Below, one piece after another: positions 4,923 through 36,416 of a stretch of DNA of 37,985 nucleotides; within the stretch, counting starts at the first letter, position 1; each line of letters begins with the position of its first letter. The position numbers and the translations under genes were made by a program. The DNA is taken from the NCBI GenBank assembly GCA_016203935.1, contig JACQLU010000030.1:1-37985 (forward strand), in the 5' to 3' direction. A model generated the notes under the pieces. The model was not told the DNA's origin. It made no database searches and saw only the letters and a program-made list of their open reading frames with translations. Source of the stretch: Parcubacteria group bacterium (GTDB taxonomy: Bacteria; Patescibacteriota; JACQLU01).

Positions 4923-4962
4923 TTAGACATTAGAAATTGGTCATTAGATATTCCAAATGTAT

Positions 4963-5059
4963 GCGCCCATAGCTTCCGCCACAGGCGGATCAGCCTCGGG
5001 CTGACAATGGCAGAGCAGGGTCGCCTGAGGCGACCAAGGTTGCAGGCCCGCCCAGCACC
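4963..5059 (+). pseudogene. Decayed tRNA-Lys copy interrupted by two palindromic repeats
   Basis: GCGCCCATAGCT|30-nt insert|CAATGGCAGAGCAGGG|TCGCCTGAGGCGA|CCAAGGTTGCAGG aligns to the intact tRNA at 5067; T arm and 3' acceptor corrupted. Confidence 0.8.
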
Positions 5060-5066
5060 TTTCTTT

Positions 5067-5138
5067 GCGCCCATAGCTCAATGGTAGAGCAGGGGCCTTT
5101 TAAGCCCAAGGTTGTAGGTTCGAGCCCTACTGGGCGCA
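5067..5138 (+). tRNA. tRNA-Lys (anticodon TTT)
   Basis: Cloverleaf: acceptor GCGCCCA/TGGGCGC, D stem GCTC/GAGC, anticodon loop CTTTTAA, T arm GTAGG-TTCGAGC-CCTAC, discriminator A; G27-A43 mismatch. Confidence 0.93.
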
Positions 5139-5155
5139 ATGTTTTGGATACATCA

Positions 5156-5230
5156 TCTAAGGTTCAGGGTTCGCCCCGAGATAAACTCAGGGCGCTACGG
5201 GTTCATCCCGGGCGAGCCCTACTGGGCGCA
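5156..5230 (+). pseudogene. 3' half-tRNA copy with an insert in the T loop
   Basis: AAGGTTCAGGGTTCG|39-nt palindromic insert|CGAGCCCTACTGGGCGCA, compared with intact AAGGTTGTAGGTTCGAGCCCTACTGGGCGCA. Confidence 0.75.
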
Positions 5231-5299
5231 AAAGGATATTTAGGCATATAGCGTTTAGACATTAGAAATTAGTCATTAGGCATTTTTGTTTTCCTTTTT

Positions 5300-36246: not shown

Positions 36247-36416
36247 GCGATCCGAATACTACGAATTACATCCGAATGCCCCGAATGAATCTTTTCATAA
36301 CTCCTCCCCACCTCCCCTTATCTTTCCGCCTAGGGCGGATCCGCCTCTGGCGGAAAGAGGAGGAGAAGTGGGGTTACTTTCGGATCATTCGGATGCATTA
36401 GTAGATTAGGATCGCG
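36247..36416. repeat. Nested inverted-repeat intergenic element
   Basis: GCGATCC...GGATCGC shell, inside it CTCCTCCCCACCTCCCC...GGAGGAGAAGTGGGG, inside that TTTCCGCCtagGGCGGATCCGCCtctGGCGGAAA. Confidence 0.8.

Follow-up and report, generated by a model that had tools for sequence, protein, structure and literature searches.

Organization of the tRNA-Lys locus

The question raised by this locus is how an intact tRNA-Lys gene came to lie between two damaged copies of itself, each interrupted by short palindromes. The stretch under study, referred to below as the window, is a contig of 38 kb belonging to a genome of 1.0 Mb in 97 contigs (G000). The nearest relatives of the SPFH protein encoded next to the tRNA block come from Parcubacteria-type MAGs, and the genome is accordingly assigned here to Patescibacteria. 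A tRNA-Lys(UUU) is the sole tRNA gene called in the window by ARAGORN and Rfam, and the flanking copies were called by neither ARAGORN nor the Rfam tRNA search. The original prediction that the gene is flanked by two decayed copies was confirmed by direct repeats and by gapped alignment of the tRNA-Lys with its own flanks, which gave a score of 33.3 (z = 24.5 against shuffled sequences) and is not a chance match; the flanks are derived from tRNA and are not unrelated sequence. The segments common to the copies and the intact gene are exact or nearly exact (Table 1), and the 3' end of the right copy is a 19-nt exact repeat, CGAGCCCTACTGGGCGCAA, whose positions 5213-5231 correspond to 5121-5139 of the intact tRNA.

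A single outer tRNA-Lys, split into a left 5' part and a right 3' part, was also considered and is not preferred. Because the left and right parts overlap around positions 40-53, two tRNA-Lys copies are the simpler reading. When the adjacent SPFH gene was used to search for synteny, no relative was found to have a tRNA-Lys in the corresponding position. The dispersed repeat TTAGACATTAGAAATT(A/G)GTCATTAG brackets the whole tRNA block in direct orientation, and CCCGCC-rich segments like the spacer of the window also precede nested tRNAs in genomes G021 and G059.

Table 1. Features of the tRNA-Lys block and its surroundings in the window
Feature	Coordinates	Strand	Basis or remark
Intergenic repeat TTAGACATTAGAAATT.. 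left of the tRNA block	4923-4952	+	Direct repeat D1; dispersed in genome
Left (5') tRNA-Lys copy, about positions 1-53, two interruptions	4963-5046	+	Direct repeats D2, D4, D5; alignment z = 24.5
Left copy, segment 1: GCGCCCATAGCT	4963-4974		Identical to intact tRNA-Lys
D-arm insert, 30 nt, between AGCT and CAATGG: TCCGCCACAGGCGGA+TCAGCCTCGGGCTGA	4975-5004	.	Sequence reading; tandem 15+15 pairs 0 in shuffles
Left copy, segment 2 (after D-arm insert): CAATGGcAGAGCAGGG	5005-5020		15/16 match to intact tRNA-Lys
Hairpin GGTCGCCTGAGGCGACC (17 nt, core TCGCCTGAGGCGA at 5021-5033) replacing the anticodon stem-loop of the left copy	5019-5035	.	Exact copies elsewhere in genome
Left copy, last segment: CCAAGGTTGcAGG	5034-5046		
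GC-rich spacer CCCGCCCAGCACCTTTCTT ahead of the intact tRNA-Lys	5047-5065	+	Read from sequence
Intact tRNA-Lys(UUU), gene anticodon TTT	5067-5138	+	ARAGORN 5066-5139; Rfam RF00005, 73.3 bits at 5067-5138
Right (3') tRNA-Lys copy, about position 40 to 3' end	about 5159-5231	+	Direct repeats D2, D3; 19-nt exact match
Right copy, first segment: AAGGTTCAGGGTTC	5159-5172		
T-loop insert of the right copy, 41 nt between GGTTC and GAGCCC	5173-5213	.	39-41 nt; two abutting hairpins, 21 + 20 nt
D1 repeat, second copy, right of the tRNA block	5255-5284	+	Direct repeat D1; 90% identical

The inserts and their repeat families

The D-arm insert consists of two abutting 15-nt hairpins, each having a 6-bp stem and a 3-nt loop. 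It is seamless, as the tRNA sequence resumes across the insert with no base lost or duplicated. At the anticodon arm of the same copy the tRNA bases are replaced and not cleanly split. The palindromes originally proposed for these two arms were both recovered, the first as an insert of exactly 30 nt and the second in place of the anticodon stem-loop. The palindromic insert proposed for the T loop of the right copy was likewise found, as a double hairpin of 39-41 nt that can be read as 41 nt between C56 and G57; its break point recurs in tRNA-Asn and tRNA-Ile of G060, in tRNA-Thr of G027, and in Glu-CTC and Lys-CTT of G000.

All inserts had been expected to match repeat families of the window, and this held for the hairpins of the left copy. 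The sequence TCGCCNNNGGCGA occurs 6 times in the window where 0.05 are expected and at 43 sites in the genome (control 0), and TCNGCCNNNGGCNGA occurs at 19 genomic sites (control 2); both are dispersed across the genome with variable loops. It did not hold for the T-loop insert of the right copy, for which neither the window nor the examined 401 kb contains another match; a relative of 88% identity is present in G021. The 15-mers are mostly found in tandem pairs, some of them imperfect. Exact tandem 15+15 pairs are present in several Parcubacteria genomes, with essentially none in shuffled sequences and none in the sampled non-Patescibacteria and Saccharibacteria loci. No Rfam family, those of group I introns and other known catalytic RNAs included, matched the inserts of the window and 20 loci at gathering scores. 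Short hairpins with conserved stems, variable loops and tandem doubles, the characters by which repetitive hairpin and double-hairpin elements are recognized, are all seen here.

Nesting of TCGCC/TCCGCC hairpins in larger palindromes was modest (6/55, p = 0.005). At window 36325-36354 and in loci L153, L154, L156, L157 and L158 such nesting was read: several larger CCCCTCTT..AAGAGGGG palindromes have a TCCGCC double hairpin in their middle, and GGTCGCC hairpins were found within GATACT.. and CATTCTGAG..GAAGAATC repeats.

Recurrence of interrupted tRNA copies

One common threshold was applied to G000 together with five genomes that are related to it or belong to its phylum. Of the 193 distinct tRNAs in these six Patescibacteria genomes, 38 had a similar copy no more than 500 nt away, compared with 3/52 in four other bacteria (p = 0.02), a rough comparison since the control tRNAs were the best-scoring ones. 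One of the three control cases, a tRNA-Met in a genome reached via a Cloacimonadota locus, has both a nuclease gene and a hairpin-interrupted copy, which shows that the phenomenon is not confined to one phylum. The automatic scan of G000 flagged seven tRNAs (Lys-TTT, Asn, Pro-GGG, Arg-GCG, Gly-TCC, Glu-TTC and Ser-GGA); three weaker copies below the automatic threshold (Glu-CTC, Lys-CTT and Ala-CGC) were added by reading, on which they rest.

Automatic scoring gave 25 clean insertions, of which 18 were in loops (eight in the anticodon loop, five in the T loop, three in the D loop and two in the variable loop) and seven elsewhere. The anticodon-loop breaks cluster at 34/35 or within one base of it, and the T-loop breaks at 56/57; such recurrence at conserved tRNA loops would be expected of SegB-like elements, which are considered below. 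Exact 30-nt 15+15 inserts interrupt four tRNA copies in three genomes: Lys in G000, Cys and Ala in G021, and Asn in G060. Anticodon-arm bases were lost in the copy of the window and also in the G000 Arg and G060 Asn copies. The observations support the conclusion that tRNA copies are interrupted by hairpin elements and that these strike tRNA loops repeatedly.

A tRNA-independent scan was made of 287 genomes of the phylum, using the double-hairpin pattern alone and the reversed pattern as control. The related double-hairpin pattern occurred 26 times in 9 of the 287 genomes, and the reversed pattern gave 0. The scan landed again in tRNA copies: joining the flanks restored tRNA sequence at L299 (Cys, score 37.5), L301 (Glu, 25.5) and L309 (Ile, 35.0), the null maximum being 12.9. 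The Cys insertion at 34/35 was in this way found anew in an unrelated genome (L299) by a scan blind to tRNAs, while the Glu copy of L301 carries several hairpins and the Ile copy of L309 a T-loop double hairpin.

Filled and empty sites, for which relatives were to be compared, were found between two sister species of one genus. At 56/57 the Thr copy of G027 holds a double hairpin of 66 nt, which the same copy in G005 lacks. G005 has an intact tRNA-Tyr; its counterpart in G027 is interrupted at several points and encloses another tRNA-Tyr, different from it and intact. Since each of the two genomes is a single contig, assembly error is an unlikely cause.

tRNA genes nested within tRNA genes

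An intact tRNA was found inside an outer tRNA of the same isotype for Ser and Gly in G000, Pro in G021, Ile, Ala-TGC and Ala-CGC in G059, and Tyr and Val in G027. In six outer copies from nested loci 105 of 107 pairs are kept, a descriptive count since the stems were chosen by reading, and one that includes 7 acceptor pairs from the window. Where a pair is not the same as in the inner copy, pairing is nevertheless retained in 26 of 28 cases. The stems thus stay paired although many pairs have changed; the outer tRNA genes are not old pseudogenes, and either worked as tRNAs until recently or are still constrained.

A GIY-YIG nuclease gene beside affected tRNAs

A GIY-YIG protein of 86 aa was first seen beside the interrupted tRNA-Cys of L299. 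A profile was built from GIY-YIG hits of the L299 type and run over all fetched loci. A GIY-YIG gene lies within 250 nt of 9 of the 51 tRNAs with copies and of 3 of the 280 tRNAs without (p = 3.9e-6). Two of these three share a locus with an affected tRNA; the third (Trp, L251) has, by reading, interrupted tRNA-like repeats on both sides. Interrupted copies without a nearby nuclease gene number 42/51. Each of the eight nuclease genes in 290 kb of loci (L195-L261) has a tRNA no more than 150 nt away (p = 2e-6). Ten of the tRNA-adjacent proteins matched Pfam PF01541; the proteins are single-domain, of about 75-86 aa, and are encoded by cellular genes in Patescibacteria. A phage origin is unsupported: with viral contigs two queries gave no relative and one query a single 33% match.

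In the clearest loci an outer, interrupted tRNA encloses both the nuclease gene and an intact tRNA of its own isotype. Clearest of all is the tRNA-Val of G027, in which the outer tRNA-Val (acceptor GGACGGT/ACCGTCC) is split by a segment that carries the nuclease gene together with a tRNA-Val and is bounded by the terminal inverted repeat TCCCGATT/AATCGGGA. The Asn locus of G060 has exactly the plan of the window, with a left 5' copy, an intact gene and a right 3' copy, plus a nuclease gene. At the Tyr locus of G005 the nuclease gene lies between two near-identical interrupted copies, and the Cys locus of G021 is also among those whose architecture, with a nuclease, supports homing. No GIY-YIG gene was found in the window, in the 401 kb (about 40%) of G000 that were sampled, or beside the tRNAs of G000.

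At the tRNA-Leu locus of G027 (L206) tandem interrupted tRNA-Leu fragments with the same insert precede the intact gene and a GIY-YIG gene follows it, which resembles segmental amplification. In L304 (1555-1791) a GIY-YIG gene with an adjacent double hairpin, having no tRNA within 400 nt, lies just after an apparent 16S rRNA 3' end.

Proposed mechanism and comparison with known systems

SegB of phage T6 is a free-standing GIY-YIG enzyme that cuts within tRNA genes at the motif RAWTSGAAC and drives tandem amplification of tRNA-Tyr together with segB (PMC13096335). By our own comparison this motif is the reverse complement of the T-loop sequence GTTCGAATY. The loci described here are like SegB of T-even phages, whose gene lies in a tRNA cluster (PMC13096335), in the GIY-YIG domain, in the position of the gene beside tRNAs, in the tandem tRNA copies and in the resemblance of the SegB motif to the T loop. 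They are unlike it in that the Patescibacteria genes are cellular and encode one domain of about 75-86 aa, the copies are plugged by hairpins, tRNAs are nested in tRNAs, cutting is putative and the window itself is without the gene. The SegB parallel suggests a sequence in which tRNA loops are cut by the Patescibacteria enzymes, tandem partial copies arise during repair, a tRNA that is resistant or a replacement is installed, and the cut is plugged by hairpins.

The reading that we prefer, and hold with middling confidence, is that the window is what remains, in eroded form, of repeated invasion of a tRNA gene by a SegB-like, tRNA-homing cycle that leaves hairpin-plugged remnants. A SegB-like GIY-YIG nuclease would cut tRNA genes at conserved loops, and repair of the break would bring into the locus a copy of the nuclease gene along with a tRNA, either working or a replacement, and would also give rise to tandem partial tRNA copies. 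Hairpin elements, joined at the break or entering the exposed loops as single strands, would plug the cut sites, and the plugged copies, no longer tRNA genes, would decay. In G000 the nuclease gene may have been lost from the locus or may act from elsewhere. With the window lacking a nuclease gene and none being found in the sampled 40% of the genome, the homing model at this locus rests on analogy of plan. Cutting, homing and hairpin joining are inferred steps of this model. Against homing, the source of the hairpins and their joining are unexplained by homing alone, 7 of the 25 break points lie outside loops, most interrupted copies (the 42/51 above) are without a nuclease gene nearby, and the anticodon arm in the window shows replacement of tRNA bases and no clean split.

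Tentatively, and with more doubt than belief, we extend this to an unrecognised tRNA-replacing homing element of Patescibacteria, in which a single-domain GIY-YIG gene and a same-isotype replacement tRNA would enter the loop of a resident tRNA gene, and double-hairpin plugs would immunise the locus and leave interrupted copies behind. If this is right, the small single-domain GIY-YIG proteins beside these tRNA genes have a function, tRNA genes that are essential and single-copy are invaded and replaced time and again, and one source of the tRNA-like fragments missed by annotation tools is explained. The seamless 30-nt double hairpins in hairpin loops are a rare natural record of palindrome entry into DNA, since the adjacent intact tRNA shows the former empty site. 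A literature search, mainly of non-subscription papers, found none on interrupted tRNA copies or on tRNA-adjacent GIY-YIG genes in Patescibacteria.

The Rickettsia palindromic elements are likewise palindromic repeats found inserted in the genes of a reduced genome, but are longer than the inserts described here. The hairpins resemble the repetitive hairpin elements of sponge mitochondria and the double-hairpin elements of fungal mitochondria (PMC2800124) in their size of about 15-18 nt, conserved stems, variable loops, tandem doubles and insertion into genes, and differ from them in being bacterial, seamless in tRNA loops and associated with a nuclease. Like REP, BIME and REPIN sequences with their RAYT (PMC3116915, PMC6006769), they are short, dispersed, extragenic palindromes that are often paired; unlike them, they were seen with no guide tetranucleotide, and G021 has them but lacks a Y1_Tnp match. 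REP-targeting insertion sequences such as IS1397 (PMC1525189) similarly have a palindrome as target, but IS1397 is a full transposon whereas the inserts here are tiny hairpins and the targets tRNA loops. The defining features of a REP or of a SegB element are in full present for neither in the window; by analogy, the hairpins appear to work like mitochondrial hairpin elements and paired REPs, and the nuclease of the related loci like SegB.

Alternative explanations

Self-contained palindromes of the REP/REPIN type, mobilised in single-stranded form by a Y1 (RAYT/IS200-like) transposase, could enter the loops of extruded or single-stranded hairpins, tRNA genes being struck because their DNA folds and only duplicates surviving the damage. 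This explanation fits the seamless insertion without target duplication, the tandem pairing of the hairpins and the finding that larger palindromes have some of these hairpins in their middle, and IS200-type enzymes require single-stranded DNA (PMC6006769). Y1_Tnp genes are present in 7 of 10 genomes tested, that of G000, RAYT-like and the only one found there, running off a contig end (L194, G000:C38:1-572). However, G021, with a completeness score of 100%, contains the scanned variant as seven exact double hairpins and gives no Y1_Tnp match, which weakens Y1 as the sole engine. In the flanks listed, neither GTAG nor GTGG was seen as a guide at the foot of the hairpins, and the GIY-YIG association is left unexplained. 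We regard this explanation as unlikely, if still a serious one.

Ordinary tandem duplication with neutral decay, the hairpins growing by template switching or landing randomly in non-coding DNA, is improbable. Damaged tRNA copies do occur in the control bacteria (the 3/52 above), hairpins are common in intergenic DNA, and their enrichment near tRNAs over the intergenic expectation is weak (p = 0.06). Evidence to the contrary comes from inserts of exactly 30 nt that recur at the same loop positions in genomes unrelated to each other, from stems specific to a family, and from the association with the nuclease. The original prediction had envisaged duplication followed by insertion of small palindromic elements, or elements that target tRNA loops; the interrupted copies and the repeated striking of loops stood, while passive duplication with random insertion misses the GIY-YIG association and the nesting.

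Even less credence is given to interrupted copies as working tRNA genes from which the hairpins are removed by splicing, as in the split or intron-containing tRNAs of archaea. The kept pairs of the outer tRNAs would agree with this, as would the several breaks at 34/35, a known intron position. However, the tRNA-splicing endonuclease domain PF01974 was found in 0 of 6 genomes while four archaeal controls matched, so that archaeal-type splicing is unsupported. Of the two outcomes named as refuting the original prediction, flanks unrelated to tRNA or spliced and expressed copies, neither was encountered. The inserts of 20 loci are without an Rfam match, intact same-isotype tRNAs adjoin the interrupted copies, and the copies of the window, G000 Arg and G060 Asn have lost anticodon-arm bases.

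Least probable of all is that the copies are attachment-site remnants left by an element that had integrated. Integration by tyrosine recombinases at tRNA genes produces a second copy of the 3' end, such 3'-end fragments are common at integration sites (PMC9897764), and the exact 19-nt repeat does begin in the T loop. Against this, just 73 bp separate the two repeats, there is a 5' copy as well, both copies are interrupted by hairpins, and the nine window proteins scanned gave no integrase domain.

Other arrangements around tRNA genes

In Saccharibacteria (L066, L072 and L078) the intact tRNA-Phe gene has upstream of it a 5' part of tRNA-Phe with a D-loop hairpin of the GCTTC-NNN-GAAGC type, which appears to be orthologous among several species. 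Orthologous tRNA-Gly copies upstream of tRNA-Gly (L067 and L071) have a three-hairpin insert of about 85 nt between the D arm and the anticodon arm; its structure is apparently conserved while the sequence differs, and it may be a structured RNA. In L125, L133 and L134 inverted repeats of 12-16 nt lie just outside the acceptor stem of intact tRNAs, giving the impression of a longer hairpin with the tRNA at its tip.
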